Shown in pieces: positions 7,072-27,541 of a DNA stretch of 47,160 nucleotides (position 1 is its first letter; the number at the start of each line of letters is the position of its first letter). The stretch is taken from the IMG/VR virus record IMGVR_UViG_3300042887_001118, positions 1-47,160 of that record, one strand, 5' to 3'. The DNA is from a virus. The notes beneath the pieces are model-generated. The model had not been told where the DNA came from. It ran no database searches and saw only the letters and a program-made list of their open reading frames with translations. Position numbers and translations under genes: made by a program.

Positions 7072-7441
7072 GGGGATGCTTTGGAATTGATTCGCAATTT
7101 GGAGGTAATACCACACGCAGAGAGAAGTACTAGATCTCTTTAAATCTGTACAAAACAACAACCGACGAAATGTCAACAATGACCTTCGATTCTTTAATGG
7201 AATTCGTAGGCGCGAACGAGTACGCATTAGCTGCTTAATTAGCATCGGGTGTAACATCCTAGGAACAGAAGTTACAAAAATGTTTTCTTAGTTATGTCAA
7301 AACTAAGTGGTGGTAGTCGTAAGAACCAAAAATCATATACGACCCTTTACTGATCAGCTTAAAATGTAGATCTAAGCGTGTGAGACGTTGGTATTATTAT
7401 TCATTGTGAAGACACGAGTTCGACTCTCGTCATCTCCACCA
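7072..7441 (+). ncRNA. ssrA: Transfer-messenger RNA (tmRNA) with tag GANEYALAA
   Basis: The tRNA-like ends pair: GGGGATG (7072-7078) with CATCTCC (7431-7437), followed by discriminator A7438 and an encoded CCA (7439-7441). The third pair is G-U, the alanine identity signal read by AlaRS. The T arm is ACGAG-TTCGACT-CTCGT (7414-7430). An internal tag reading frame at 7209-7238 (resume codon probably GGC) encodes GANEYALAA then TAA, a typical SsrA degradation tag. Downstream hairpins CTTAGTT/AACTAAG (7287-7307) and GTCGTA/TACGAC (7316-7343) fit the pseudoknot region. tmRNA rescues stalled ribosomes and tags the peptide for ClpXP. The phage would depend on host SmpB, as none is seen here. Confidence 0.93.
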
Positions 7442-7453
7442 AAAATAAAGGTT

Positions 7454-7873
7454 ATGAAATGGATTTCTTCTTTTGTAGTAGCTGTGTTTTTTACAATACC
7501 ATTAAAAAGCACTGTATATCTTTTTAAATCAAATGAATCAGCGCCTGTAATTACAGACACTGTAACTGTGACAACTTATACCACCGATATAAGCGAAACT
7601 GACGAAGAGCCTCTTATAACTGCGAGTGGTTTTAAACTTGATTCTTTAAATCCAAGAAGACACAAGATAATCGCTATAAGTAGGGACTTAAAAAAGAGAT
7701 ATCCATTTGGATCTAAGGTAAGAGTAACTGGTCTTGGAAAAAAGTACGATGGAGTATATAAAGTAGAAGACGTAATGCACTCAAGGTGGAGAAAGAAAAT
7801 AGATCTACTTATAAATCCTAAAGACAAACAGTTTAAAAAGAGAAGAGTTGTAATAACTCCTATAGAAAAATAA
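7454..7873 (+). CDS. Exported 3D-domain (double-psi barrel) protein
   Basis: The start at 7454 is chosen because upstream in-frame codons lie inside the tmRNA; this ATG follows AAAGGTT. The 139-residue protein has an N-terminal hydrophobic signal or anchor (ISSFVVAVFFTIPL). A 3D/RlpA-like domain at about residues 35-125 follows, with LITASG, IIAISRDL, PFGSKVRVTG and EDVM-x-SRW-x3-IDLLI in the expected order, including acidic residues of the Asp-rich signature. Such domains occur in peptidoglycan-acting enzymes and cell-wall-binding proteins. A role in host wall lysis is plausible, and this is the only candidate lytic protein seen here. Confidence 0.7.
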   Translation: MKWISSFVVAVFFTIPLKSTVYLFKSNESAPVITDTVTVTTYTTDISETDEEPLITASGFKLDSLNPRRHKIIAISRDLKKRYPFGSKVRVTGLGKKYDGVYKVEDVMHSRWRKKIDLLINPKDKQFKKRRVVITPIEK

Positions 7874-7876
7874 CAT

Positions 7877-7948
7877 CGCGAGGTAGAGCAGCGGTAGCTC
7901 GGCGGGCTCATAACCCGTAGGTCGGAGGTTCGATCCCTCCCTTCGCAA
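7877..7948 (+). tRNA. Initiator tRNA-fMet (anticodon CAU)
   Basis: The 72-nt gene folds as a cloverleaf with anticodon CAT at 7909-7911. The acceptor CGCGAGG/CTTCGCA has a C1-A72 mismatch, the bacterial initiator signature required for formylation. The anticodon stem has three consecutive G-C pairs next to the loop (GGG-CTCATAA-CCC), a second initiator hallmark. The D stem GAGC/GCTC and T arm GGAGG-TTCGATC-CCTCC are intact. CCA is not encoded. It lies 3 nt after the 3D-domain gene. Confidence 0.93.
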
Positions 7949-7955
7949 CAAACAC

Positions 7956-12351: not shown

Positions 12352-13794
12352 ATGATTAAAGGTTACACTCCAAAGGATCAAAGAAAAAAGATCTTGTTTT
12401 TGTGCGATGACATTAGAATGACAAGCGGAATATCAACTATAGCTAGAGAATTAGTTATAGGTACATCCCACAGATTTAATTGGATCAACGTAGGTGGAGC
12501 CATCCAACATCCAGACAATGGAAAAAGATTGGACATAAGCGAAGATACAAATAAAATAATGGGAATTCCTGACGCATCTGTGTTTATATACCCAATAAAC
12601 GGATACGGTTCTCCAGAATTGATTAGACAGTTGATGGACATTGAGAAACCTGACGCTATCATGTTTTTCACAGATCCAAGATATTGGACTTGGTTGTTTC
12701 AAATGGAAAACGAAATTAGGAAAAAAGTTCCTATGATCTACTTAAATATTTGGGACGATTTACCTGCTCCTCTTTATAATAAGTCTTACTACGAATCTTG
12801 CGATACACTAATGGCGATTTCAAAACAAACTTTGAATATCAATAAGCTTGTATTAGGAGATAAAGCTGCAGATAAGATATTACGATATATTCCACATGGT
12901 ATAAACGAAAAGATATTTTTTCCAATCAACGAATTTATGGTTCAAGACATTCAAGCGCTTGAAGCAAAAAAGAAAGCGGTATTCGGAAATAATATGCCAG
13001 AGTTTGTGGTTTTCTACAACGCAAGAAATATTAGAAGAAAGTCGACATCTGATTTGATAGCAGCTTATTCTATATTCTGCGAGAAGATAGGAAAAGAGAA
13101 AGCTAAGAAGTGCGCTTTACTTATGCACACTCAAGTAAGAGACGATAACGGTACAGACTTAGACGCAGTTAAAGATCTATTATGTGATCCAGAATATGTA
13201 AGAGTTGTTTTTCACGATGCTAGAGTTGCTGCAAATGAAGTAAACTGGTTATATAATATGTCAGATGTTACAGCATTGATTTCTTCTAACGAAGGTTGGG
13301 GATTATCTTTAACAGAATCTTTGATGGCCGGTAAAATGATTATTGGTAATGTAACAGGCGGAATGCAAGATCAAATGAGATTCGAAGACGAGAATGGCAA
13401 GTGGATTGACTTCGATGAAAACTTCTGTTCTAATCACTTTGGAACTTACAAAAAGCATGGAGATTGGGTCGTACCCGTATATCCTTCTAACTTAAGCATC
13501 GTTGGATCTATTCCTACTCCGTATATCTTTGACGATCGTTGCGACATTAGAGACGTTGCAAAAGCTATAGAAGAAGTTTACAATCTAGGACCAGAAGAAA
13601 GACAGAAAAGAGGATTGAGCGGAAGAACTTGGGTACAATCAGATGAATCTATGATGAGTGCAAGACGTATGTCAGAAAACGTTATAGAGTGCATAGAAGA
13701 TACATTCAGCAATTTTAAACCAAGAAAATCTTTCGAATTAATTAAGATAGATAAATTACCAAGAAAAAAAATAACACACAAACTAATATATTAA
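12352..13794 (+). CDS. GT4-type glycosyltransferase
   Basis: The 480-residue enzyme has a GT-B fold pattern: an N-terminal KILFLCDDIRMTSGIST donor/acceptor loop and a C-terminal domain with the EX7E motif EGWGLSLTE (Glu314, Glu322) typical of GT4 retaining transferases. PHGINEKIFFP is the usual interdomain linker motif. It likely transfers a sugar from a nucleotide donor in the cytoplasm. It is the first enzyme gene of the island and is followed by a second GT4-type gene after 1 nt. Donor and acceptor cannot be told from sequence. Confidence 0.85.
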   Translation: MIKGYTPKDQRKKILFLCDDIRMTSGISTIARELVIGTSHRFNWINVGGAIQHPDNGKRLDISEDTNKIMGIPDASVFIYPINGYGSPELIRQLMDIEKPDAIMFFTDPRYWTWLFQMENEIRKKVPMIYLNIWDDLPAPLYNKSYYESCDTLMAISKQTLNINKLVLGDKAADKILRYIPHGINEKIFFPINEFMVQDIQALEAKKKAVFGNNMPEFVVFYNARNIRRKSTSDLIAAYSIFCEKIGKEKAKKCALLMHTQVRDDNGTDLDAVKDLLCDPEYVRVVFHDARVAANEVNWLYNMSDVTALISSNEGWGLSLTESLMAGKMIIGNVTGGMQDQMRFEDENGKWIDFDENFCSNHFGTYKKHGDWVVPVYPSNLSIVGSIPTPYIFDDRCDIRDVAKAIEEVYNLGPEERQKRGLSGRTWVQSDESMMSARRMSENVIECIEDTFSNFKPRKSFELIKIDKLPRKKITHKLIY

Positions 13795-13795
13795 T

Positions 13796-15088
13796 ATGAA
13801 GCAATATTGTGTAATAAGCTGTCCAATAGACACTTATTCAGGTTACGGAGCAAGAGCTAGAGATTTTGTTAAAGCATTATACGAATCCAAAAAAGAAGAG
13901 TACGATATCGAAATCATATCACAAAGATGGGGAGTTACTCCATGGGGATATATAAAAGATCATGAACAAGAATGGGGTTTTTTAGAATCAATGATCATGA
14001 AACAACAGATGACAAAACAGCCAGACGTTTGGATTCAAATTACAGTGCCAAATGAATTTCAAGCTGTAGGTAAATTTAACATCGGAGTTACTGCAGGTAT
14101 AGAAACCACATTATGCCATGCAACTTGGATAGATGGAGTTAACAGAATGAACTTGACGTTAACCTCTTCAGAGCACGCTAAAAATGTTTTCAAACAATCT
14201 ACTTTCGAAGAAAAGAATGGTCAAGGTCAAGTAGTTAGACAAATCAAATTAGAAAAACCAGTAGAAGTACTATTTGAAGGTGTTGATCTGAACAAATATT
14301 TTTACGTAGCAGATGATGATTTAGATGGCACTGAATTGGTTCAGGCTTTGGATGAAATAAAAGAGGACTTCTGTTATCTGTTTGTTGGACATTGGTTACA
14401 AGGAGATTTAGGCGAAGATAGAAAAAATGTAGCCTTAACTATTAAGACATTCTTAGAAACATTTAAAGATAAGAAAAGCAAACCAGCTTTAATACTTAAA
14501 ACATCAGGAGCAGGATCTTGCATTATGGATAGAGACGAGATGCTTAAAAAGATTGACGCTATAAGAAACACTGTGAGTGGAAGTTTACCTAACATTTACT
14601 TGTTACACGGAGAGATGGACGATAAAGATATCAACAATTTATACAATCACGGTAAAGTTAAAGCCATGATTAGCTTGACAAAGGGCGAAGGATTTGGTAG
14701 ACCTCTATTGGAATTTACTTTATCCAAAAAACCATTGATAGTAACAGCGTGGTCAGGTCATATCGATTATTTGTATATGGAAAATACATGCATGGTAGGT
14801 GGAACACTAAAAGGAGTTCATCCATCAGCACAAGTAAAAGATATGATATTACCAGAATCTGCATGGTTTAGTCCTGATACAAAGCAAGCGGAGTTCTATT
14901 TAAAAGACATCTTTGAAAAGTACTCTAAGTACGAAGAGCGAGCAAAGAAACAAGCGCATCAATCTAAAACTAAATTTAGCTTTGACGAGATGAAGAAAGC
15001 TTTAGAAGCTGTATTCAATAAAATTCCTAAAAGTGTGGGATTGACTTTACCTAAACTTAAAAAAATAGAAGTTAAAAATGACAAGTAA
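13796..15088 (+). CDS. GT4-type glycosyltransferase
   Basis: The 430-residue protein begins with CPIDTYSGYGARARDF, a GT-B N-terminal loop. It carries the linker motif VEVLFEGVDLNKYF and the C-terminal EX7E motif EGFGRPLLE, followed by KKPLIVTAWSGHIDYL. These match GT4 enzymes with a bacterial 'Gly-x-Gly' acceptor loop. It follows the other GT4 gene by 1 nt, suggesting the two act in one pathway. Its 3' end overlaps the next small gene by 11 nt. Confidence 0.85.
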   Translation: MKQYCVISCPIDTYSGYGARARDFVKALYESKKEEYDIEIISQRWGVTPWGYIKDHEQEWGFLESMIMKQQMTKQPDVWIQITVPNEFQAVGKFNIGVTAGIETTLCHATWIDGVNRMNLTLTSSEHAKNVFKQSTFEEKNGQGQVVRQIKLEKPVEVLFEGVDLNKYFYVADDDLDGTELVQALDEIKEDFCYLFVGHWLQGDLGEDRKNVALTIKTFLETFKDKKSKPALILKTSGAGSCIMDRDEMLKKIDAIRNTVSGSLPNIYLLHGEMDDKDINNLYNHGKVKAMISLTKGEGFGRPLLEFTLSKKPLIVTAWSGHIDYLYMENTCMVGGTLKGVHPSAQVKDMILPESAWFSPDTKQAEFYLKDIFEKYSKYEERAKKQAHQSKTKFSFDEMKKALEAVFNKIPKSVGLTLPKLKKIEVKNDK

Positions 15089-15293
15089 AGAATTCGTAAT
15101 TTGGCTCAAAGGATTCACTGAAGGAGTTCATGATTTTAATATCACCCCTAAACAGTGGGATTTATTAAAAGAAGAATTAGCAAAAGTAAATGATGAACCT
15201 CGTAATACCGTAGCCTACTACTCTCAAGATGGTAGACCAGCTTGGTACACAACCACTAATTCAACTAACGATAAAACATTATTAAATGACTGA
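15078..15293 (+). CDS. Small phage protein (EFVxWLKGF type)
   Basis: The 71-residue protein has a helical N-terminal half with EFVIWLKGFTEGVHDFNITP and QWDLLKEELAKV, a pattern recurrent in small phage and prophage proteins of Bacteroidota. The C-terminal third is Thr/Asn-rich and probably disordered. It overlaps both neighbours. Its place inside a glycan island may be incidental. Confidence 0.6.
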   Translation: MTSKEFVIWLKGFTEGVHDFNITPKQWDLLKEELAKVNDEPRNTVAYYSQDGRPAWYTTTNSTNDKTLLND

Positions 15294-15732
15294 TCAATTA
15301 ACATCATGTCCAAAGTGTAAGGCCGAAGATGCATGCTACATAACTCCAATTAATGAGTTTCATAGTGGATACGCATGCTTTAGTTGTGGTTTTACAACTA
15401 GCGATTTAATGAGAGAAGGCGAATTTGATTTCGAACAATACGAAGAAGAGATGCCTGAACTTTACAAAGATTTAAAGTACACTGACGAAGATGGTCGTGT
15501 ATGGTATCCTCAAGTAATTAACATAGAAGACAAAGGTACCGTATTTGCAAATGGCGGTTCTAAAGAGGATTGGCAATGGGCTGGAATTAAAACTATAGAA
15601 TTAACAGAAGAAGAGAAAGAGCTCCCTAAATTTAAAGGCAAGACTCACAAATCAGATTCTGCTAGCTTACAAGCATTCGAAGAGGATTTCTTTGCTGCTT
15701 GTGATTATATAGGATTGTTTGATATAAAATAA
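15286..15732 (+). CDS. Zinc-ribbon hypothetical protein
   Basis: The 148-residue protein starts with a zinc ribbon (CPKCKAEDACYITP, then CFSCGF at about residues 31-36) followed by an acidic region and a compact beta domain (WYPQVINIEDKGTVFANGG, DWQWAGIKTIEL). Related single-ribbon proteins are common in phages with unknown roles. It overlaps the preceding gene by 8 nt and ends 5 nt before a GT2 gene. Confidence 0.6.
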   Translation: MTDQLTSCPKCKAEDACYITPINEFHSGYACFSCGFTTSDLMREGEFDFEQYEEEMPELYKDLKYTDEDGRVWYPQVINIEDKGTVFANGGSKEDWQWAGIKTIELTEEEKELPKFKGKTHKSDSASLQAFEEDFFAACDYIGLFDIK

Positions 15733-15737
15733 AGAAT

Positions 15738-16346
15738 ATGAAAATAAGTTACGCGATAACTGCACACAACGAGGCAGAAGAATTAAATAGACTCTTAAAA
15801 CAACTCACCGAAGGAAAAGAACCGGGAGACGAGATCTTAATTCAGTTAGACGATAAAGCCACAGACAAAGTAAAATTTGTAGTTGATTCGTATCCAGTAA
15901 AATCTATTACATTTCCTCTTAATAACGATTTCGCTGCATTTAAAAACAATCTAAAGGATAATTGTACTGGAGACTATATCTTCTTTATAGATGCTGACGA
16001 ATATCTTTCTGAGCATTTACTAAAACTGCTTAAGCAAGTATTAGAATCTAATTCTCAAGTAGATTGTTATGGAGTTCCAAGAGTTAATACAGTTAAAGGT
16101 TTAACAGAAGAACACATAAAGAAATGGGGTTGGATAGTTAAAGACAACAAAATAAATTGGCCTGATTATCAAACAAGAATCTGTAAGAATGTTCCTCATA
16201 TAAAATGGGCTGGTAAGGTTCACGAAAGATTACAAGGTTGGCAAGTATCTTCAGTATTTCCCGCAGATTTTGAAGATTGGGCTTTGTACCACCCTAAAAC
16301 AATAGAAAGACAAGAACAACAAAACAATTATTACAACACGTTATGA
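15738..16346 (+). CDS. GT2-type glycosyltransferase
   Basis: The 202-residue enzyme has a GT-A core: ISYAITAHNEAEEL at the N-terminus, a LDDKATD loop, and the DxD-type motif FFIDADEYL (about residues 81-89) that binds metal and nucleotide sugar. A WAGKVHERL segment with WALYHPKTIERQ follows, as in small LPS-type GT2 proteins. It overlaps gmd by 4 nt. Donor and acceptor are unknown. Confidence 0.85.
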   Translation: MKISYAITAHNEAEELNRLLKQLTEGKEPGDEILIQLDDKATDKVKFVVDSYPVKSITFPLNNDFAAFKNNLKDNCTGDYIFFIDADEYLSEHLLKLLKQVLESNSQVDCYGVPRVNTVKGLTEEHIKKWGWIVKDNKINWPDYQTRICKNVPHIKWAGKVHERLQGWQVSSVFPADFEDWALYHPKTIERQEQQNNYYNTL

Positions 16347-17326
16347 GTAAAGTAGCACTAATCACTGGTATTAACGGTCAAGATGGAAGTTATTTAGCGG
16401 AGTTATTATTGGAAAAAGGATACGAAGTACACGGCATATTAAAAAGAAACTCCGTAGCAGAGAATCAAACAGCAAGAATTAAAGTTTACGATGAGATCAA
16501 AGATAATTTGACTTACGCAGATATGACTGACTTAGCTTCTCTTAATAGAGTATTGGCTAAAGTACAGCCTGACGAGATATATAACTTAGCCGCTCAATCT
16601 CATGTAAGAATATCATTCGATCAACCAGTATACACGGCAAACACAGTTGCAATTGGAACTCTTAATCTATTGGAAGCCACGCTATCTATGTGTAAGAACG
16701 CAAAGATATACCAAGCATCCTCTTCTGAAATGTTTGGTAATTCTATAGATGAAGATAGATTTCAAAGAGAGTCCACTCCAATGAATCCAGTATCTCCTTA
16801 TGGATGTGCTAAAGTATTCGGATACAACATAACAAGGAACTATAGAAACTCTTATGGCATGTATGTGTCTAATGGAATTCTATTTAACCACGAATCTCCA
16901 AGAAGAGGCACAAACTTCGTAACAAACAAAGTGGTTAAAGAAGCGGTTAAAATATTCTACGGCCAATCAACAGAATTAAGATTGGGAAACTTAGAAGCTA
17001 CTAGAGATTGGGGTCATGCTAAAGATTACGTAGAAGCAATGTGGAGAATATTACAATTAGAAGAGCCTAACGATTTTGTTTGTGCTACTGGAGTTTCACA
17101 CTCAGTTAAAGAACTATGCGAGTATGTATTCACTAAGTTAGGTTTAAACTACGAAGACTACGTAAAGTTAGATATGAAGTTTTTAAGACCTGAAGAGTTA
17201 ACTGATTTAAAGGGAGATCCTACCAAATTAATGAAAGCCACAGGTTGGGTACCCACATACACATTTGAAACAATGCTTGATGAAATGATTGAGTATTGGA
17301 AACACGAATTAAATAAAGTATTCTAA
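16343..17326 (+). CDS. gmd: GDP-mannose 4,6-dehydratase
   Basis: The 327-residue extended-SDR enzyme has the Rossmann motif GINGQDGSYLAELLL, NLAAQSHVRISFDQP, the catalytic SSSEMFG and YGCAK (Tyr-x3-Lys). It also has the GDP-sugar loop NHESPRRGTNFVTNK and ATRDWGHAKDYVEAMW. It converts GDP-D-mannose to GDP-4-keto-6-deoxy-mannose. It is slightly shorter than cellular Gmd (about 340-370). The next gene, overlapping by 1 nt, encodes the following step to GDP-L-fucose. No mannose-1-phosphate guanylyltransferase is present, so GDP-mannose must come from the host. Confidence 0.93.
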   Translation: MSKVALITGINGQDGSYLAELLLEKGYEVHGILKRNSVAENQTARIKVYDEIKDNLTYADMTDLASLNRVLAKVQPDEIYNLAAQSHVRISFDQPVYTANTVAIGTLNLLEATLSMCKNAKIYQASSSEMFGNSIDEDRFQRESTPMNPVSPYGCAKVFGYNITRNYRNSYGMYVSNGILFNHESPRRGTNFVTNKVVKEAVKIFYGQSTELRLGNLEATRDWGHAKDYVEAMWRILQLEEPNDFVCATGVSHSVKELCEYVFTKLGLNYEDYVKLDMKFLRPEELTDLKGDPTKLMKATGWVPTYTFETMLDEMIEYWKHELNKVF

Positions 17327-18225
17327 TGACAAAAGTAATTACCGGAGGAACTGGATTAATAGGATCTGCTTTCAGTGAAGGAGTTAAATTAAGTTCTAAA
17401 AGAGATTTAAGAGATTACGATAAAGCAAAGTTCGCTATATCAATGTATAAACCAAACGTAGTGATACATTGCGCAGCTAAAGTAGGCGGAGTCGGAGCCA
17501 ACATGGAATTCCCAGCAGATTTTTTTATGGACAACATTAGAATGAATACGAATGTGATTCAAGCTTGTCACGAATTAAAAGTGTCTAAGCTAGTATCTTT
17601 TTTATCTACGTGTGTATTTCCTGATAAAGTGGAATATCCATTAGACGAAACCAAAATAGAATTAGGCGCTCCACACGCATCAAACTTCGCTTACGCTTAT
17701 GCTAAGAGAATGGCAGACGTACAAATCAGAGCATTCAATAAACAATACGGCACACAATATTTTTCAGTAATTCCTTGTAATGTTTATGGACCAAATGATA
17801 ACTACAGCTTAGAAGTTGGTCATGTAATTCCAATGCTAATTCACAAGTGTTATCTTGCTAAGAAAAATAGAAAGACATTTGAAGTATGGGGTGATGGTAC
17901 TCCGCTTAGGGAATTTGTTTATTCAAAAGACGTAGCAAACATAGTAGATCTACTTATTCAGAAATACGAGGGGACTGATCCTGTGATTATATCCAATCCA
18001 ACTGAGTATTCTATTAAACAAGTAGTTGATCTGATTGTGGAGTACGTGGGCTTCAAGGGGAAAGTAAAATGGTTGACAGACAAACCAAACGGTCAACACA
18101 GAAAACCATCTTCTAACGCCAAACTTTTAAGTATCATAGGAGACTATGAATTTACCACTTTGGAGAAAGGTTTAAAAGAATCGATAGAATGGTTTATATT
18201 AAACTATCCAAAAATTAGAAAATAA
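17326..18225 (+). CDS. fcl: GDP-L-fucose synthase
   Basis: The 299-residue SDR enzyme has GGTGLIGSA, the GDP-fucose synthase signature CAAKVGGVGANMEFPADFF, the active-site STCVFP with conserved Ser and Cys, YAYAKRMAD (Tyr-x3-Lys) and NVYGPNDNY. It performs the NADPH-dependent epimerisation and reduction of the Gmd product to GDP-L-fucose. It overlaps gmd and the next gene by 1 nt each, indicating coupled translation. Fucosyltransferase-like genes at 19993 and 24662 are the likely users of its product. Confidence 0.93.
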   Translation: MTKVITGGTGLIGSAFSEGVKLSSKRDLRDYDKAKFAISMYKPNVVIHCAAKVGGVGANMEFPADFFMDNIRMNTNVIQACHELKVSKLVSFLSTCVFPDKVEYPLDETKIELGAPHASNFAYAYAKRMADVQIRAFNKQYGTQYFSVIPCNVYGPNDNYSLEVGHVIPMLIHKCYLAKKNRKTFEVWGDGTPLREFVYSKDVANIVDLLIQKYEGTDPVIISNPTEYSIKQVVDLIVEYVGFKGKVKWLTDKPNGQHRKPSSNAKLLSIIGDYEFTTLEKGLKESIEWFILNYPKIRK

Positions 18226-18896
18226 TGACAAAAGAATTAATTGTAGCTTCTTATTTTGATTCAAAAGCAAGGTATCTAGAAGACGTTTCATGGTTAAATA
18301 GAATAGATCCTTCTATAAAAATTTATTTATACAATAAAAATGAAAATAACCACTATCCAAACTCCATACATTTGCCTAACGTAGGTAGAGAGGGTCATAC
18401 GTACATACACCACATATGTGAAAACTATGATAATCTTTCAGAGTATTTATTCTTTTTTCAAGGCTATCCATTTGATCACACTGGATCTTGTATAGAAATA
18501 ATTAATGAAGATTTAGATATATGGAATTTAAAATCTCAATTAAGATTTGATGGATATTGGGGATATTGCCACAATTATTTTGGAACTATGTGGAATCTAG
18601 ATAAAGCAATCGAGTTCGAAGGCAATTGTTTAAGATGCGATAAAAATGGAAAACCACATCATCATGAAAATATTCCATGTTGGCAACTATGGCAAGAAAT
18701 GTTCGATTGTGAAATTCCAGAGACCATAGAATTTAATCCAGGAAATCAGTTTAATGTGAGTAGAGATTTAATAAAACAAAGAGGTTTAGATTTTTGGAAA
18801 AAGTTATTAGCTTTATCATATACTAGAGAGCTTTGGCCTTGGGAGTTAGAAAGATTAATGCCTTATATGATGAATCCTAAATACAAATCTAAATAA
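18225..18896 (+). CDS. DUF3431-like putative glycosyltransferase
   Basis: The 223-residue protein contains the segments LPNVGREGHTYIHHI, NLSEYLFFFQGYPFDH and WELERLMPYM, characteristic of DUF3431 proteins, which accompany glycosyltransferases in polysaccharide clusters. Conserved His, Asp and Cys residues suggest a catalytic or metal site, but the reaction is not established. Its sequence is clearly more A/T-rich than gmd and fcl. It overlaps fcl and glf by 1 nt each. Confidence 0.75.
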   Translation: MTKELIVASYFDSKARYLEDVSWLNRIDPSIKIYLYNKNENNHYPNSIHLPNVGREGHTYIHHICENYDNLSEYLFFFQGYPFDHTGSCIEIINEDLDIWNLKSQLRFDGYWGYCHNYFGTMWNLDKAIEFEGNCLRCDKNGKPHHHENIPCWQLWQEMFDCEIPETIEFNPGNQFNVSRDLIKQRGLDFWKKLLALSYTRELWPWELERLMPYMMNPKYKSK

Positions 18897-19996
18897 TGAA
18901 ACCGTATGACTATTTAATTGTAGGGTCAGGATTTTTTGGATCTATATGTGCTCATGAACTTAAAAAATCAGGAAAACGATGTTTAGTAATAGACAAACGT
19001 AATCATATTGGAGGAAATTGCTATACTGAAAATAGAGACGAAATAAATGTTCACATATATGGCCCTCATATATTCCACACAAACAGTGAAAAAGTATGGA
19101 TGTGGATAAATCAATTTGTTAATTTTAATAATTTTGTTTTTAGACCTGTTGCAAATTATAAAAATAATATATATTCTTTACCTTTTAACATGTTTACTTT
19201 TTCTAAACTTTGGAATATATCTTCTCCAAAAGAAGCTATAGAAATAATAGAAAAACAAAGTTCTCACATTCAATTTCCTAAAAATCTAGAAGAGCAAGCT
19301 ATTAAATTAGTGGGTACTGAAATTTATGAAAAATTAATAAAAGGCTATACAGAAAAGCAATGGAAAAAAGATGCAAAAGATTTACCAAAAGAGATAATAA
19401 AAAGATTGCCTGTTAAATTTACTTATGATAATAGCTATTTTGATGACAAATATCAGGGCATCCCAATAGGCGGATATACTCAAATATTTGAAAAATTATT
19501 AAATGACATACAAGTTGAACTTAACGTAGATTATTTATTAGATAGAGAGTATTGGGATAATAAAGCCGATAAAATTATATTCACAGGACCTATAGATGCT
19601 TTTTATGAATATAAATTTGGCCAGTTGGAATATAAAACAAATAATTTCGTTCATAAAAAATTAGAAGTAGAAAATTTTCAAGGGACGTCAATGATGAATT
19701 ATACAGAAAAAGATATTCCGTATACTAGAATAATAGAGCATAAACATTTTGAATTTAATAAGAATAATAAATGCACTTGGATATCATATGATTATCCTGT
19801 AGAATACGATTATAAAACAACTGATCCATATTATCCTGTAAATGATGAGGAGAACAATAAAAAATATACTTTATACAAAAATTTATCAAATCAAGAAAAA
19901 ACTATTATGTTTGGTGGTAGATTAGCCGAATACAAGTACTACGATATGGATGATGTCATAGATTCAGCTTTAAATTTTATAGAAAAAATAATATGA
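18896..19996 (+). CDS. glf: UDP-galactopyranose mutase
   Basis: The 366-residue flavoenzyme begins with LIVGSGFFGSICAHELKKSG and VIDKRNHIGGNCYTE, the FAD-binding UGM signature. YGPHIFHTNSEKVW, LPFNMFTFSKLW, KGYTEKQWKKDAKDLP and FGGRLAEYKYYDMDDVI follow, all diagnostic. It interconverts UDP-galactopyranose and UDP-galactofuranose. Length is normal for bacterial Glf. The substrate must come from the host. The coding sequence is markedly more A/T-rich than its neighbours, suggesting separate acquisition. Confidence 0.95.
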   Translation: MKPYDYLIVGSGFFGSICAHELKKSGKRCLVIDKRNHIGGNCYTENRDEINVHIYGPHIFHTNSEKVWMWINQFVNFNNFVFRPVANYKNNIYSLPFNMFTFSKLWNISSPKEAIEIIEKQSSHIQFPKNLEEQAIKLVGTEIYEKLIKGYTEKQWKKDAKDLPKEIIKRLPVKFTYDNSYFDDKYQGIPIGGYTQIFEKLLNDIQVELNVDYLLDREYWDNKADKIIFTGPIDAFYEYKFGQLEYKTNNFVHKKLEVENFQGTSMMNYTEKDIPYTRIIEHKHFEFNKNNKCTWISYDYPVEYDYKTTDPYYPVNDEENNKKYTLYKNLSNQEKTIMFGGRLAEYKYYDMDDVIDSALNFIEKII

Positions 19997-20829
19997 TAAG
20001 TTATAAAAAAATAGGACACTTTGGTAGATTGGGAAATCAAATGTTTCAGTTCGCTTCCACTGTAGGCGTAGCTAATAAGACTGGACACAACGTAGCATTT
20101 CCAAAAGAGAATATAACTGTACCTAGCGTGGAACATTTTAAAGACGGAGTTAGAAGAGAAGTTTATTTTGATTTACCCAAGTATTTCGACAATGTTAAGT
20201 TGACACTGAAACCAGAATCAGAGATAACAACATTACACATAGCGCAAGAACCTTACTTTCATTTTTGTCAAGACCTATTTAGAGTACCAGATCAAACCAA
20301 TTTAATGGGCTACTTTCAAACAGAGAAGTACTTTGAACATTGCCGCGAAAAAATAAGAGAATTCTTCGAGTTTAATTCAGAAACAAAAAAGAAAGCCGAG
20401 TCTGCTTTTCCAACATTTCCTATGCAATTAGAATTTGTGTCTATACATTTAAGAAAGGGAGATTACGCAGGTCTTCAACAGTTTCACCCAGTAATGAACG
20501 CAGACTACTATTTCAATGCTATGACCTATTTTATGGATGGTAACTATTGCTTCTTAGTATTCTCTGACGATATAGAATATGCCAAAGAGTTATTCGGAGA
20601 TCAAGAGAACATTGTTTATATGGAAGGAAACGAACCTGATGTAGACATGTGCATGATGAGTATGTGCCATCACAACGTAATAGCCAACAGTAGTTTCAGT
20701 TGGTGGGGTGCATGGTTAAATCAAAACCCGGATAAAAGAATTGTAGCTCCAAAGAAGTGGTTCGGACCTGCATACAATGGAGTTCATGATACAAAAGATT
20801 TATACCCACAATCATGGATTATAGTATAA
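19993..20829 (+). CDS. GT11 fucosyltransferase (alpha-1,2 type)
   Basis: The 278-residue product fits GT11: GRLGNQMFQFAS at the N-terminus, MGYFQTEKYF, the donor-binding HLRKGDYAG motif, FVFSDD-like FLVFSDDIEYAK, and NSSFSWWGAWLN near the C-terminus. GT11 enzymes transfer L-fucose from GDP-fucose, usually alpha-1,2 to galactose. This matches the gmd-fcl pair upstream. It overlaps glf by 4 nt. The exact acceptor is unknown. Confidence 0.9.
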   Translation: MISYKKIGHFGRLGNQMFQFASTVGVANKTGHNVAFPKENITVPSVEHFKDGVRREVYFDLPKYFDNVKLTLKPESEITTLHIAQEPYFHFCQDLFRVPDQTNLMGYFQTEKYFEHCREKIREFFEFNSETKKKAESAFPTFPMQLEFVSIHLRKGDYAGLQQFHPVMNADYYFNAMTYFMDGNYCFLVFSDDIEYAKELFGDQENIVYMEGNEPDVDMCMMSMCHHNVIANSSFSWWGAWLNQNPDKRIVAPKKWFGPAYNGVHDTKDLYPQSWIIV

Positions 20830-20847
20830 AATATAAATTAAGCTAAT

Positions 20848-21735
20848 ATGAAATATGAAAGAGCGTTGGTTTTTGGTGCTGCCGGTATGTTAGGTACTAC
20901 TTTAAAGACTTTAATAAATTCAAATAAGTATATTCTAACTGATAAAGATGTTATTCCAGGATTGGAATTTTGTGATATAAGAGATTTAGAACATACTTCT
21001 AAAATAGTGCAAAAATATAATCCTGATATTATTTTAAATTTTGCAGCATTGGTAGATCTTGAATATTGTGAAAAAGAAAAAGATGATTGTTATCTTACAA
21101 ATACAATCGCTTCTATTCATTTATTTAATTTGGCAAAAGATTTAGATATTCCTTACGTGTTTATAAGCACGGCTGGAATATTTGGAAACGATAAAGAATT
21201 TTATACAGAAGAAGACATACCATATCCGCTAAGCACTTACGGAAAAAGTAAGTATTACACTGAACAATCTTTGTTGCAACAACAATATAATAAATTTTGG
21301 ATATTTAGAGCGGGTTGGATGATGGGAGGAGGACCTGATGTTGATAAAAAATTCGTTAATAAGATACTTAAACAAGTAAAAGCCGGCAAAAAAGAACTTT
21401 TTGTTGTCGACGATAAATTAGGAGTTCCCACATATACTAAAGATTTTGCTAATTCTATATTAAAGCACATCGAAGAAGATCTTCCCTTTGGACTTTATAA
21501 TATGGTAAGTACAGGAGAAGCAAGCCGATATGATACTGCAATAGAAATAAATAATTATTTAAAATTAGGATTAACTATCACAAAGGTGAATAGCGACTAT
21601 TTTAAAGATGAATATTTTTCTCCAAGACCATATTCTGAAAAATTAATTAATCAAAAACTAAATAATTTAGACAGAAATTATATGCGAGATTGGAAAATTT
21701 GTTTACATGAATATTTAAACGATTTTTTTAAATGA
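20848..21735 (+). CDS. RmlD-like NAD(P)-dependent sugar reductase
   Basis: The 295-residue SDR protein has VFGAAGMLGTTL, NFAALVDLEYCE, FISTAGIFG and YGKSKYYTEQ (Tyr-x3-Lys), and FRAGWMMGGG, the order seen in dTDP-4-dehydrorhamnose reductase. No RmlA, B or C gene is in the window. It may finish a host-made dTDP-4-keto sugar, or act on another 4-keto sugar. Strong A/T bias (many AAT, ATA, GAA codons) sets it apart from gmd/fcl. It overlaps the next GT2 gene by 4 nt. Confidence 0.8.
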   Translation: MKYERALVFGAAGMLGTTLKTLINSNKYILTDKDVIPGLEFCDIRDLEHTSKIVQKYNPDIILNFAALVDLEYCEKEKDDCYLTNTIASIHLFNLAKDLDIPYVFISTAGIFGNDKEFYTEEDIPYPLSTYGKSKYYTEQSLLQQQYNKFWIFRAGWMMGGGPDVDKKFVNKILKQVKAGKKELFVVDDKLGVPTYTKDFANSILKHIEEDLPFGLYNMVSTGEASRYDTAIEINNYLKLGLTITKVNSDYFKDEYFSPRPYSEKLINQKLNNLDRNYMRDWKICLHEYLNDFFK

Positions 21736-22445
21736 AAATTGATAAACCATTTTTTAGCGTTGCCATACCCACATGGGGAATTAAAGGCCGAGGAGTTGAA
21801 TACTTAGAACATTCATTTAACATATTAGCACAACAGAGCTTCACTGATTACGAAGTTGTGATATCAGATCATAGCGAAGATGACGATATAAAGAACTTAT
21901 GTAATTCTTGGAGTTCAATCATGAATATTAAATATTTGAGAAATTCTAATGGCATAGGCAAGATAGCACCAAATATAAATAACGCCATTGAACATTCAAG
22001 CGGTCTATTTATCAAGATGTTATTTCAAGACGATTTCTTATATGACACAGATTCCCTTCAAATTATAGCTGATAGCATAGCAGAGAATCAAGATAAAGAC
22101 TGGTTTATTACTGCATGTGTACACACAGACGATTGTGTAACTATGTATGATAGAATGACTCCATACTATCATGATCGTATATACGCAGGAATTAACACTA
22201 TAAGTTGTCCATCTGTACTAACGATTAGAAATGAATATGCGAAACCAAAATTTGATGAGACATTGAATTGGTTAGTGGACGTAGAGTACTATAAGAGACT
22301 GCATATGTTATACGGAGACCCCGTTGTTGTAGATATGGTGTGTACAGTAAATAGAAACGCAGAAGTTAGAACAACTAATATGATGACTGAGAAACAAAAA
22401 CAAGAAGAGATATCACGAGTAATAAGAAGATATGAAACTAAATAA
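21732..22445 (+). CDS. GT2-type glycosyltransferase
   Basis: The 237-residue protein opens with FFSVAIPTWGIKGRG and QSFTDYEVVISDHSEDD, a GT-A nucleotide-binding start. The usual DxD-like position reads LFQDDFLYD, and LVDVEYYKRLH lies near the C-terminus, as in WcaA/Rgp-type GT2 enzymes. It lies in a tight run of overlapping genes and shares 14 nt with the next. Donor and acceptor are unknown. Confidence 0.82.
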   Translation: MKIDKPFFSVAIPTWGIKGRGVEYLEHSFNILAQQSFTDYEVVISDHSEDDDIKNLCNSWSSIMNIKYLRNSNGIGKIAPNINNAIEHSSGLFIKMLFQDDFLYDTDSLQIIADSIAENQDKDWFITACVHTDDCVTMYDRMTPYYHDRIYAGINTISCPSVLTIRNEYAKPKFDETLNWLVDVEYYKRLHMLYGDPVVVDMVCTVNRNAEVRTTNMMTEKQKQEEISRVIRRYETK

Positions 22446-23088
22446 CGTAACCATTGCCGCTGTAGCAGGCGCTAAAGTTATTGAAACTCTTAAGGCTATT
22501 AAGTATAGTATGCGAGAATTAGATTTTGACCGTGCGATCCTAATTACTCCTGACGATATACAAGACGATGTAGTAGAGATAATCAAATGCGAACCTTTAA
22601 ACTACGAACAGTATAACCACTTTATAGTTTATAGATTGCACGAGTACATTAACACAACGCATTGTCTATTGGTACAAAACGATGGATATGTAGTTAATCC
22701 AGATAAATGGCAAGAAGAGTGGATGCAATACGATTATATAGGAGCTTTATGGCCTCTACCTCAAGACGACTTCTCTTTTAGGGATCAAGACGGCAACATA
22801 CAAAGAATGGGTAACGGAGGATTCACACTAAGAAGTAAAAAGTTATTATGTGTGGCAAAAGATTTAGATTTAGAATGGAAACAGTATTATGGATTTTATC
22901 ACGAAGATGGGTTCTTTTGTTGTCATCATAGAAAAACTTACGAATCAGCAGGATGTAAGTTTGCTCCAATAGAAGTGGCGGCTGAATTTAGTCATGAAAC
23001 TATGGTAGCAGAGAACTATGGAAACATACCATTCGGGTTTCATGGAAGAAACAATTATTATTATCAAGTAACACAAAAAAGTTTATAA
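22432..23088 (+). CDS. DUF5672-like putative glycosyltransferase
   Basis: The 218-residue protein includes LLVQNDGYVVNPDKW, YDYIGALWPL, GNGGFTLRSKKLL, YHEDGFFCCHHR and FGFHGRNN, the conserved blocks of DUF5672, a GT-A-like family found in glycan clusters. QNDG and the HED-type acidic residues are likely metal or donor contacts. It overlaps both neighbours. Activity on a nucleotide sugar is inferred from family and context. Confidence 0.78.
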   Translation: MKLNNVTIAAVAGAKVIETLKAIKYSMRELDFDRAILITPDDIQDDVVEIIKCEPLNYEQYNHFIVYRLHEYINTTHCLLVQNDGYVVNPDKWQEEWMQYDYIGALWPLPQDDFSFRDQDGNIQRMGNGGFTLRSKKLLCVAKDLDLEWKQYYGFYHEDGFFCCHHRKTYESAGCKFAPIEVAAEFSHETMVAENYGNIPFGFHGRNNYYYQVTQKSL

Positions 23089-23663
23089 TGAAAAAACAAA
23101 ATAATTTAATACTAGACTATTCTAAAATTATACAAGAGAATATAGAGTATCTAGAAAAAGATTTGGGTTTAAATTGGGTATATAGAAAAGGCGAAGCATT
23201 TCAATTACTAAGTCATATAACAAAACAATTTAATGATATTACGATCATTGACGCAGGCACTCACTACGGATGGTCTGCTTATTGTTTAAAAGAAAATCCA
23301 AAAAACAAAGTGATCACATACGATATCACAGATCGATTTAATAATGAATATCTAAAGGCTGTTTCTAACGTAGAAGTAAAAATATTAGACATAAATAAAG
23401 AAGATCACCAAATCATCCATTCTGCTGAGGTGATCTATCTAGATATAGATCCCCATGATGGATTGCAAGAAAAGGTATTCACAGATTTATTAGATAGAAT
23501 AGAGTGGCAAGGTTATTTATTTTGCGATGATATTCACATTAATTCTGGAATGGAAAATTGGTGGAATTCTATCAACTTGGATAAGTATGATTTAACAGAA
23601 GTAGGACATACGCATGGCACAGGATTAGTTACGTATAATAGAGAAATATCAATAATTAAATAG
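23088..23663 (+). CDS. Class I SAM-dependent methyltransferase
   Basis: The 191-residue protein has a SAM-binding motif I, IIDAGTHYGWSAY, a second acidic strand VITYDIT, and YLDIDPHDGLQ with LFCDDIHIN at motif IV positions, resembling the Methyltransf_24/FkbM-like group. In this island it may O-methylate a sugar or cap a glycan. It overlaps the upstream gene by 1 nt and ends 1 nt before an epimerase gene. Confidence 0.75.
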   Translation: MKKQNNLILDYSKIIQENIEYLEKDLGLNWVYRKGEAFQLLSHITKQFNDITIIDAGTHYGWSAYCLKENPKNKVITYDITDRFNNEYLKAVSNVEVKILDINKEDHQIIHSAEVIYLDIDPHDGLQEKVFTDLLDRIEWQGYLFCDDIHINSGMENWWNSINLDKYDLTEVGHTHGTGLVTYNREISIIK

Positions 23664-23664
23664 T

Positions 23665-24660
23665 ATGAAAGTATTAATAACAGGAGTCGCAGGTCTATTA
23701 GGGTCAAGACTCGCAGATTGGATCATAGATAATAAGCCAGAAGTAGAAGTAGTAGGTATCGATGATTTATCAGGCGGATACTTAGATAACGTAAACCCAA
23801 AGGTTAATTTCTGGCAAATGAACTTAGTAGAACATCCTATTGAGAATTGTTTTGCTACTAATGAATTTGACTATGTATTCCACTTCGCAGCTTACGCAGC
23901 AGAAGGTTTGAGTCCATTCATTAGAAGATACAACTACGACAATAACTTAGTAGCGACAGCAAGAGTTGTAAACAATTGTATTAAGTACGATGTTAAGAGA
24001 TTGATCTTTACTTCTACTTTAGCTGTATATGGTCATGGTTACGGTGGTATATTCGATGAAACACAAGTACCAAAGCCAATAGATCCATACGGAGTTGCTA
24101 AGTACGCTTGTGAGATGGACATTCAAATTGCAGGTGAACAACACGGTTTAGATTGGTGTATCATTAGACCTCACAATGTATACGGTCGTAAGCAGAATAT
24201 ATGGGATAAGTATCGCAATGTCTTGGGTATTTGGATGTATCAACAGATGAACGGAGAACCAATGACAATCTTTGGAGACGGTACACAAACAAGAGCATTC
24301 AGTTGTATCGACGATATAGTTGAGCCGTTATGGAATTCAGCCGTAGAACCAAGAGCATCTAAAGAGATTATCAATTTAGGTGGAGTAGAAGAGTGGAGCA
24401 TCAACGATGCAAACAAAGTATTAAGAGATATCATTAAATACGGAGCAGAGTATCAATACAAAGAAGGAAGACATGAGGTAAAGCACTCAATTCCTACATA
24501 TCAGAAATCAGAAGACATTCTTGGTTTTAAACACAAGACTACGTTAGAAGAGGGACTATACGATATGTGGTTATGGGCACAACGTCAACCAAATAGAGAG
24601 AGATTTGTTTGGCCTTCATACGAATTAGACAAAGGCATTTATTCATTCTGGAAAAAGTAA
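23665..24660 (+). CDS. NAD-dependent epimerase/dehydratase (GalE-like)
   Basis: The 331-residue extended-SDR enzyme has ITGVAGLLGSRLADW, VVGIDDLSGGY, FHFAAYAAEG, FTSTLAVYG and YGVAKYACE (Tyr-x3-Lys), and IIRPHNVYG, as in UDP-glucose 4-epimerase and related enzymes. The FGDGTQTRAFSCIDDIV segment is typical of the substrate domain. It may provide UDP-galactose for Glf or another hexose, but substrate cannot be fixed from sequence. Confidence 0.85.
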   Translation: MKVLITGVAGLLGSRLADWIIDNKPEVEVVGIDDLSGGYLDNVNPKVNFWQMNLVEHPIENCFATNEFDYVFHFAAYAAEGLSPFIRRYNYDNNLVATARVVNNCIKYDVKRLIFTSTLAVYGHGYGGIFDETQVPKPIDPYGVAKYACEMDIQIAGEQHGLDWCIIRPHNVYGRKQNIWDKYRNVLGIWMYQQMNGEPMTIFGDGTQTRAFSCIDDIVEPLWNSAVEPRASKEIINLGGVEEWSINDANKVLRDIIKYGAEYQYKEGRHEVKHSIPTYQKSEDILGFKHKTTLEEGLYDMWLWAQRQPNRERFVWPSYELDKGIYSFWKK

Positions 24661-24661
24661 T

Positions 24662-25552
24662 ATGATATACACTGAATTCATGTACGGTCAAGGTTTCGGT
24701 AACCAACTTGCAGTCTATGTAACTACTAGAGCTATAGCCAAAAGAAATGATTATGATTTCGGTTATACTGGATTGGAAAACTTTGGAGATAAGAGATACA
24801 ATGATAAAGGCGTATATTTTATGGATATTGATTTAGGATCTCCAGTATTACCAACTAGCGAAACTTACATAGAAAAAGAAACAAGAATAAAATTAGATCA
24901 TTCAGATCATGATCGTACACATGGATGTGACATACGATTAATAGACCAAGATCTATTGAATGTTGCAAATAATACGAAGGTTATGGGTATTATGCAAGGC
25001 GAAGATTATTTTTGGGATTATAGAGAAGAAGTTAAAGATTGGTTGAAAGTAAAACCAGAATTTGATTGCGTAGATTATAGTCACGATGATATATGCGTAT
25101 TGAATATCAGAGACTACGAAGCAGATCCCACTCTATTCTTATCAAGAGATTATTGGGTTAAAGCAATCTATCATATGCTTAGTTTAAACCCTAACATGCA
25201 ATTCCTAGTGATCACAGAGAATCCTGATATGGCAAAGAGATTGCTACCAGAATTAGCCGACAACGTATATCACTTTGATTTAGCTAAAGACTATTCTATT
25301 ATTAAGAATGCAAAATGGTTAATCCTATCCAATTCAAGCTTTGCTTATTTTCCAGCATTTTGTAGTGATGCTCATCTAATTATAGCACCGAAGTATTGGT
25401 GTAGACACAACGTATCTGATGGATATTGGAGTTGTGGTTATAACATAAGTCGTAAGTTTACATACATGGATAGACAAGGCCAATTACAATCTTATACAGA
25501 TGTAGCTAGAGAATTTGAATTATATAAAAAAGAAAGCAAGATATATGGCTAG
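24662..25552 (+). CDS. GT11-like glycosyltransferase
   Basis: The 296-residue protein has a GT11-type start (FMYGQGFGNQLAVYVTTRAI), a central VLNIRDYEADP in place of the HxRRGDY motif, FLVITENPDMAKRLL and NSSFAYFPAFCS near the end. It is related to the gene at 19993 but diverged at the donor-binding motif, so sugar specificity may differ. It overlaps the GT17-like gene by 8 nt. Confidence 0.72.
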   Translation: MIYTEFMYGQGFGNQLAVYVTTRAIAKRNDYDFGYTGLENFGDKRYNDKGVYFMDIDLGSPVLPTSETYIEKETRIKLDHSDHDRTHGCDIRLIDQDLLNVANNTKVMGIMQGEDYFWDYREEVKDWLKVKPEFDCVDYSHDDICVLNIRDYEADPTLFLSRDYWVKAIYHMLSLNPNMQFLVITENPDMAKRLLPELADNVYHFDLAKDYSIIKNAKWLILSNSSFAYFPAFCSDAHLIIAPKYWCRHNVSDGYWSCGYNISRKFTYMDRQGQLQSYTDVAREFELYKKESKIYG

Positions 25553-26408
25553 AGTATTTGATGTGTTTACATTCTTTAATGAATTGGATTTATTAGAACT
25601 AAGATTAGAGATGTTAGATCCTTTTGTAGATCAGTTCGTATTAGTAGAATGCGTAGAGACTTTTTCAGGTAAACAAAAGCCTTTGTATTTTAGTCAGAAT
25701 AAACAGAGATTTGAAAAGTACTTACATAAGATCCATCACCACATTACATTCACACCGCCAAAATCATTTGAAGATCTACAACAGAGAATAGTGGATGATA
25801 AGACTAGCGAATTTGAAAAACAAGTTTGCATACAAGCATTGACTACGTCTAATGTACCTAAAGGCGAATTACACTGGTTGAAAGAATTCTATCAAAAAGA
25901 ATATATTAGATTGGCGATAGAAAATGCAGGAGCTCAAGAAGAAGATTTAATATTTGTAACAGACTTAGACGAGATATGGAATCCGGAATTGGACTACACA
26001 ACAATAGAAGATAATAAAATATACAAGCTAAGACAACTTGCTTATTCAGGCTATATGAACATAAGATCTTCAGAAGATTGGGCCGGTACATTATTAACCA
26101 GATATACAAATATAGATGGAGCTTGTTTAAACCATCTTAGAACTCCATCAAAAACTAAGTACGAGTACGTTAACAATGCGGGTTGGCACTTCACATTTAT
26201 GGGAGGAGAGAAACAAGTTAAGATGAAATTAGAAGCTTACGGTCACCAAGAGTACAACAACGATTCTGTTAAGAATAGAGTTGGAGATTTATTGGCAAAC
26301 GGTCAAGACGTTTTAGGCAGAACCAATTTTAAATTTTGGTTGGACGAATCTCAATTACCAAAGTATCTACTAGATAACAAACAAAAGTATAAACAATTTT
26401 TTAGATGA
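25545..26408 (+). CDS. GT17-like glycosyltransferase
   Basis: The start at 25545 gives the compact overlap ATGGCTAG with the previous stop; an upstream in-frame ATG at 25515 would add ten residues. The 287-residue protein begins VFDVFTFFNELDLLELRLEML then VLVECVETFSGKQKPLYF. It contains TDLDEIWNPELD and GWHFTFMGG, characteristic of GT17 (beta-1,4 N-acetylglucosaminyltransferase-like) proteins found in large viruses and bacteria. Acceptor unknown. Confidence 0.85.
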   Translation: MARVFDVFTFFNELDLLELRLEMLDPFVDQFVLVECVETFSGKQKPLYFSQNKQRFEKYLHKIHHHITFTPPKSFEDLQQRIVDDKTSEFEKQVCIQALTTSNVPKGELHWLKEFYQKEYIRLAIENAGAQEEDLIFVTDLDEIWNPELDYTTIEDNKIYKLRQLAYSGYMNIRSSEDWAGTLLTRYTNIDGACLNHLRTPSKTKYEYVNNAGWHFTFMGGEKQVKMKLEAYGHQEYNNDSVKNRVGDLLANGQDVLGRTNFKFWLDESQLPKYLLDNKQKYKQFFR

Positions 26409-27541
26409 TAACATTCTGCATACCAAGCAAGAACAACTTAAGATACTTAAAACCTTGTATCAAATCTATTCAAGATAATTCTTATTACCCGAATCAAATC
26501 ATTGTGTACGTAGATCAAGACACTGACGGAACAGTAGAATGGTTGAGAGAGAATGATATTAAGTTCATTCAAAACCACGAAGCGACTCCAAGAGGAATTG
26601 GCTTCGCTTACGATAACATGTTTCAATGGGCCGACAGAGAATATGTAATAGCATTTCACGCTGATATGATTCTTGGTCCTCATGCAGACAAACACATGAT
26701 GGATATCAAAACAAAGGACAACATCGTGTGCGCCACTCGTATAGAACCACCACTACACCCAGCCGGAATAGAGAAGATAGTACAGGATTTTGGTATGTGG
26801 CCAGAAGATTTGAAGATCGAAGAGTTTAATCGGTTCGTTGAGGAAAACAAAAGCGATAAGATAACAAAAAGCATCTTCGCTCCATGGTTAATTAGAAAGG
26901 ACCAACACTTAGGTCACGATCCTATATTCTTATCGGTATTTGAAGACGCGGATCTATTTAGAAGATTCAAATTACATGGTTACGATTTGATTCAATCGTG
27001 GTCCGCAATGGTATATCACTTGACTTGTAGAGGCGGACAGTTTGCACACGCAGAAAAAATGGAAGACTTTAGTAAGAAGGACGAAAGTTGGCAGAAGAAT
27101 AATCAAATATCGGCTAACGAATACATTAGAAAATGGGGAGGGTTTTTAAAACAAACAGACACATTAGAACCTATACCGAATATCAAATACAATGTAGGAT
27201 TAAAAATATTGAATTGTTTTAATGACGGTGTACTTGGAGTAGAACCATTCTTCGATCAGATACAATGCGAAGCGGATCCTACTAACTACATCAATAAGAA
27301 TAAAGACATTTCATCTTTCGATATAGCCTCTAAGTTTGTTAGTGAGTTAACTACGGATATGATTTTAGAAGCGGACTACAAAGATATTCTTAATAATCAA
27401 GAACTTTTTAATTATATTCTGCATAACCTACCAGAATTAATCACTAATGAAGTTGAAGAACCTGGACAATATGAGTTACAAATATTCAAATTAATTGTAA
27501 GAGAGAAAAAAGAAAGTCAACCTAAATTAAAATTATGTTAA
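26405..27541 (+). CDS. GT2 glycosyltransferase, paralogue A, with C-terminal extension
   Basis: The 378-residue protein has a GT-A domain (about 1-240) with FCIPSKNNLRYLKPCIKSI, VYVDQDTDGT, FHADMILGP, ATRIEPPLHPAG and VYHLTCRGG. A 140-residue extension follows. The next gene encodes a clear paralogue with the same blocks, so this is a tandem duplication. The extension is not recognised and differs between copies. It overlaps its neighbours by 4 and 7 nt. Confidence 0.85.
   Translation: MITFCIPSKNNLRYLKPCIKSIQDNSYYPNQIIVYVDQDTDGTVEWLRENDIKFIQNHEATPRGIGFAYDNMFQWADREYVIAFHADMILGPHADKHMMDIKTKDNIVCATRIEPPLHPAGIEKIVQDFGMWPEDLKIEEFNRFVEENKSDKITKSIFAPWLIRKDQHLGHDPIFLSVFEDADLFRRFKLHGYDLIQSWSAMVYHLTCRGGQFAHAEKMEDFSKKDESWQKNNQISANEYIRKWGGFLKQTDTLEPIPNIKYNVGLKILNCFNDGVLGVEPFFDQIQCEADPTNYINKNKDISSFDIASKFVSELTTDMILEADYKDILNNQELFNYILHNLPELITNEVEEPGQYELQIFKLIVREKKESQPKLKLC

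Follow-up and report, generated by a model that had tools for sequence, protein, structure and literature searches.

The window analysed here, the 47,160 nucleotides of a linear IMG/VR virus record (IMGVR_UViG_3300042887_001118), carries on its forward strand a one-piece tmRNA (ssrA) gene with an encoded CCA end at positions 7072..7441. A phage-encoded tmRNA had been proposed at this place by the first-pass annotation, made from the sequence alone, and ARAGORN and the Rfam model RF00023, the two tools named there as a check, delimit the gene at exactly the same coordinates. The cmscan match covers the model in full length (1-374) with a score of 84.5 bits against a cut-off of 47 bits (E 1.8e-31). 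The matched ends, G3-U70 pair, T arm and encoded CCA listed in the annotation are each seen in the sequence: according to the cmscan alignment, the 5' acceptor strand GGGGATG (7072..7078, with G3 at 7074) pairs in 7/7 positions, G3-U70 included, with the strand CATCTCC (7431-7437, with U70 at 7435), which together with A73 and CCA (7438-7441) forms the 3' terminus of the gene (7431..7441), while the T arm ACGAG-TTCGACT-CTCGT, possessing a 5-bp stem, lies at 7414..7430. Pseudoknots PK1-PK4 are spanned by the alignment, with low posterior probability in the PK2-PK4 region, and the score is below the 126-162 bits obtained for flavobacterial host tmRNAs. The gene is nevertheless confirmed as a real tmRNA and not a chance match, because the same kind of tags and tRNA-like domains recur in related viral contigs; in the family described below, the 7/7 acceptor stem, G3-U70, 5/5 T stem and TTC loop are found in 74 of 76 unique tmRNAs.

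The gene directly downstream (7457-7873) matches PHROG 21574 and, weakly, the L-alanyl-D-glutamate peptidase family; its product is possibly a cell-wall enzyme. It is followed by a tRNA-Met(CAT) gene on the same strand (7877..7949), which is marked as an initiator tRNA by its C1xA72 mismatch and by an anticodon stem containing three G-C pairs. The initiator tRNA which the first-pass annotation placed alongside the tmRNA is thus indeed there, and to regard the two genes as a putative deliberate control of translation seems reasonable. ARAGORN detected additional tRNA genes for Thr, Ser and Gln in the window. A block comprising a PD-(D/E)XK nuclease, a small ORF, two glycosyltransferases, a hypothetical protein and one more glycosyltransferase is collinear with that of Flavobacterium phage vB_FspM_immuto (Immutovirus) at 41-63% amino acid identity, and because of this collinearity the host of the virus is likely to be flavobacterial. 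No tmRNA was detected in immuto itself. A long cassette, with genes for glycosyltransferases, nucleotide-sugar epimerases and related proteins, occupies positions 12352-28710, its beginning being collinear with immuto. Searches of GenBank phages with the window tmRNA and with the first 25 kb of the window gave no matches.

Within the tmRNA, a frame of 24 codons, DEMSTMTFDSLMEFVGANEYALAA, starts with GAC at 7164 and ends with the stop codon TAA at 7236 (7164..7238), as was recognized from the ARAGORN results on close relatives and from conservation at the codon level. The peptide GANEYALAA followed by TAA, which the annotation had presented as a complete tag, is present at 7209-7238. It comprises, however, merely the C-terminal nine residues of the 24-residue frame, a host-like degron (7209..7235) comparable to the modal host tag GENNYALAA, and it is preceded by the N-terminal extension DEMSTMTFDSLMEFV (7164..7208), which does not occur in the host tags compared. 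In the window itself ARAGORN called the short tag ANEYALAA; in the near-identical relatives L002 and L003 it reads DEMSTMTFDSLMEFVGANEYALAA, and the 24 residues of L002 are identical to those encoded in the window. The tags called in two further relatives, L011 and L007, are DEMSTMTFEDLMSFVGADYALAA and AEELSSFTFEDAMSFVGADYAVAA, respectively; these four close relatives were found via the second glycosyltransferase of the window. The short call in the window is probably due to the base at -5, which is C instead of T. On the sequence data the tag of the window tmRNA is predicted to consist of 24 residues read from GAC 7164, GANEYALAA being its C-terminal part. Default ARAGORN tag calls on phage genomes can consequently leave out most of the tag.

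The resume signal in the window, AACAACC (7157..7163), has A at -4 (7160) and -3 (7161) and C at -5 (7159), where the family consensus is AAUAA[AC][CU]|G. Before the long tag, A was found at both -4 and -3 in 58/58 tmRNAs and T at -5 in 56/58, these 58 being the sequences in which ARAGORN, a program that seeks such a signal, called the long tag, so that the comparison is partly circular. When matches were counted by pattern only, with a looser motif, a matching signal preceded the tag in 74 of 89 unique matches; most of the other 15 either have (T/G)xAA(A/T)x in front of the tag or are chance matches. In E. coli tmRNA, A86 at -4 is indispensable, whereas U85 at -5 can be replaced by C (PMC2481249), the very base which the window has at this position. 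The long tags of phages start at RNA nucleotides 89-101, and the tags of bacterial, mostly flavobacterial, hosts mostly at nucleotides 95-99. The bacterial tmRNAs L293 and L300, with acaataact|GGC, share their context with the phage acaataact|GAC.

The long tag belongs to a family distributed among uncultivated phages. The DNA pattern of the core, F[ED]xxMxFVGA, was found in at least 119 stretches of viral contigs, against 5 for a control shifted by one base, and ARAGORN tmRNAs containing it amounted to 102 loci with 76 unique sequences, a minimum for the family, these counts including related sequences and hence not representing independent events. Several loci missed by ARAGORN were confirmed as tmRNA by Rfam. 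The tags of the family are 23-26 residues long, an extension of 14-16 residues with the consensus D/A-x-E-L-S-T-x-T-F-E/D-D-x-M-A/S-F-V standing before the host-like GANEYALAA or GADYAVAA. A conserved neighbour gene was sought as well, and none was present in more than 17 of the 76 loci. Different parts of the tmRNA (tRNA-like, linker) have different best relatives between phages, and this mosaic structure suggests recombination between phages. The tmRNA of L003 (1886-2304) is almost identical to that of the window in its 5' part and tag, and different in its 3' part, as is consistent with recombination. ClpP-family peptidases occur in 11 of 44 records, nearly all of them long-tag ones, versus 1 of 31 others; this co-occurrence was rejected as evidence, p being 0.36 per base and the set of 31 records being shorter and itself including some long-tag contigs. 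Such peptidases lie at L348 5362-5904, L349 5635-6174 and L350 6264-6830 (- strand), the former two adjoining glycosyltransferase genes.

The long frame is under protein-level selection. Entropy at codon positions 1, 2 and 3 of the tag frame was 0.38, 0.21 and 0.95, the third position being the most variable, and pN/pS of this frame was 0.31 versus 1.51 and 3.24 in the other two. For the six N-terminal codons, which are outside the constraint imposed by the search pattern, the value was 0.49 versus 1.5 and 15.7 in the other frames. The tags of the family end in YALAA or YAVAA, a small hydrophobic degron. Among 20 divergent representatives, identity in the tag core reached 77% at the amino acid and 76% at the nucleotide level, both somewhat inflated by the pattern search, which fixes some of the core bases; in the same representatives the corresponding values were 58% for the T arm with the acceptor and 39% for the P2 strand before it. 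The core of the tag frame is able to form a hairpin (mean z -0.82 versus synonymous shuffles), so that nucleotide conservation there may in part be of RNA-level origin. As the whole cause of conservation this hairpin was rejected, since E-to-D changes (GAA to GAT) would disrupt the lower stem predicted for it and protein-level selection is also seen in the first six codons of the segment compared. At most, the core hairpin constitutes a second layer of conservation.

Comparison with bacterial tags, which the first-pass annotation had recommended, revealed likeness at the C-terminus and a difference in length: among 38 comparison bacterial tmRNAs, mostly of Flavobacteriaceae, 34 carry tags of 9 residues, modally GENNYALAA, versus 24 in the window. 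The core pattern gave 3 matches in 395 Bacteroidota genomes, counted without individual inspection and close to chance level, and a GTDB scan for the tag pattern contained no tmRNA among the 119 matches listed. With four DNA variants of the tag, blastn against 50,697 phage records and 72,556 plasmid records gave no match; tblastn of the 24-residue tag against GenBank phages, for which a query this short is weak, also gave none. A PDB sequence search with the tag returned nothing, and no tag peptides were found in the openly accessible paper texts searched. The tag thus appears to be phage-specific and unlike the tags of the sampled hosts.

That tmRNA genes are uncommon in phages, as had been remarked for this locus, agrees with their detection in 402 of 18,146 phage genomes (PMC9004378); earlier compilations include Bxz1-type mycobacteriophages, Wildcat and Bacillus phage G (PMC4131195). 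In a set of 97,179 tmRNAs, tags of 10 residues are the most frequent (PMC11915505). In isolated phages we read tags of 25 residues (ET08), at least 22 (Calle_1), 17 (MA9V-3, permuted), 14 (IME-SM1 and Mendera, permuted) and 13 (phage G), so that long phage tags as such were already known, whereas the present tag family, with its distribution and conserved extension, appears to be new. The GENNYALAA tmRNAs of Flavobacteriaceae (RF00023) are similar to that of the window in their one-piece organization, G3-U70 acceptor, T arm, resume position near nucleotide 95, A at -4 and the tag end YALAA; they differ in a 9-residue tag without extension, in a higher model score and in being neither phage-borne nor phage-mosaic. 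Mycobacterium phage ET08 (Bixzunavirus, Bxz1 species) likewise bears a one-piece tmRNA with a long tag, ATDTDATVTDAEIEAFFAEEAAALV (ATDTDAT...AALV), in the resume context GAUAAAC|GCA, but its sequence is unrelated to that of the window and the host is actinobacterial. Cellulophaga phage Calle_1, a flavobacterial phage, has a one-piece tmRNA among many phage tRNAs; its tag ends in VAVGV and lacks both the TFEDxMxFVGA core and the YALAA degron. In this tmRNA (L360 1501-1862) the tag end LEVAVGV is without the usual -AA, and the tag would have about 30 residues if read from TTTAAAC|GGA. Chryseobacterium phage MA9V-3, also infecting Bacteroidota, encodes the 17-residue tag GNVIDINKYVAKLEVAA in the context AATAAAC|GGA, the tag being different from that of the window and the gene circularly permuted (two-piece); it lies at L354 5948-6306, with a gene annotated as clpX nearby. 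The uncultured 484-kb phage LR756508 carries a full tmRNA and, in addition, a 112-base tmRNA-like match (L285 1501-1612, 58.2 bits) consisting of both ends of the tRNA-like domain with little between them. This match resembles a short tmRNA-like form reportedly present in phage DS6A.

SmpB, the protein partner of tmRNA, is normally supplied by the host and is not required of the tmRNA itself. No SmpB gene was found in the window or in 24 relatives, all these records being fragments, and one was present in 1 of 47 further viral records, fragments as well. The 294-kb viral contig G063 has a gene for a full SmpB (L347 7453-7896, - strand; Pfam E 4.7e-43), which matches the unnamed PHROG 6791, and one for a tmRNA with the long-tag variant DNKSTMTFEDAMAFVGAGEVLMAA (L123 1101-1478, - strand), so that this single phage carries both trans-translation components.

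Considering these data, the gene probably specifies a functional phage trans-translation RNA that would act with host SmpB, resume translation at GAC 7164 and add the long tag. An equivalent RNA could instead resume at GGC 7209 or GCG 7212 and add GANEYALAA or ANEYALAA, the upstream frame being open by chance or maintained as RNA structure only. Such an internal start is the one ARAGORN calls in the window, its context UAGGC|GCG resembles the E. coli signal UAGUC|GCA, GANEYALAA is of the same length as the host GENNYALAA and matches it in sequence, and the core can fold into a hairpin. Yet the near-identical L002 and L003 are called with the 24-residue tag, the internal start that ARAGORN selects has A at -4 in only 46/76 sequences versus 58/58 for the upstream start, and the internal start would sit about 45 nucleotides past the normal resume position. 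Moreover, the low in-frame pN/pS (0.31, against more than 1.5 in the other frames) extends outside the hairpin. We consequently regard resumption at the internal position as improbable.

Another explanation is that a host-type rescue RNA was retained just for extra rescue capacity during degradation of host messages, with the extension being a tolerated linker. The host-like C-terminus of the tag, the dependence of the E. coli hybrid-phage plaque assay on tmRNA (PMC2481249) and the generally long tags of phage tmRNAs, 25 residues in ET08 for example, are compatible with it; a neutral linker, however, is at variance with the 77% amino acid identity of the tag core, versus 39-58% in the other tmRNA parts measured, and we consider this explanation possible, though rather doubtful. 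The common use of ssrA as an integration site by phages and genomic islands (PMC11590407, PMC11915505) could also indicate a captured or decaying copy, i.e., a functionless attachment-site remnant. This origin is hardly credible for a full-length gene that has the two halves of the tRNA-like domain and the full frame, whose acceptor and T stem are kept in 74/76 relatives and whose tag differs from every host tag sampled, as a remnant would show the tag of its host together with decay.

If the window indeed encodes a functional RNA with the long tag, the phage tmRNA would be charged with alanine via G3-U70 during infection and, together with host SmpB and EF-Tu, would move into ribosomes that have stalled on cleaved or incomplete (non-stop) messages. 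The ribosome would then switch to the tmRNA frame at GAC 7164 and add a tag composed of the charged Ala and DEMSTMTFDSLMEFVGANEYALAA, terminating at TAA 7236, and ribosomes would be set free while messages are being broken down. Because the C-terminal YALAA is host-like, the tagged proteins would presumably still be recognized and degraded by ClpXP-type proteases of the host. The extension, in turn, would most likely contact an adaptor, a protease, a chaperone or a phage protein and thereby alter the fate of tagged proteins or the rate of their removal.

Proposals for the presence of tmRNA in some phages range from extra rescue capacity to the recycling of host protein. We tentatively suggest, as a possibility short of an even chance, that phages have re-coded a labelling system of the host, the extension acting as a docking signal towards a phage-chosen fate and the long-tag phage tmRNAs forming a separate class under viral selection. 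Were this so, the possible fates would include faster or redirected proteolysis, protection, and capture by a phage protein. The strong conservation across many phages of a tag clearly distinct from those of the sampled hosts points to viral selection on the tag itself, beyond ribosome release.
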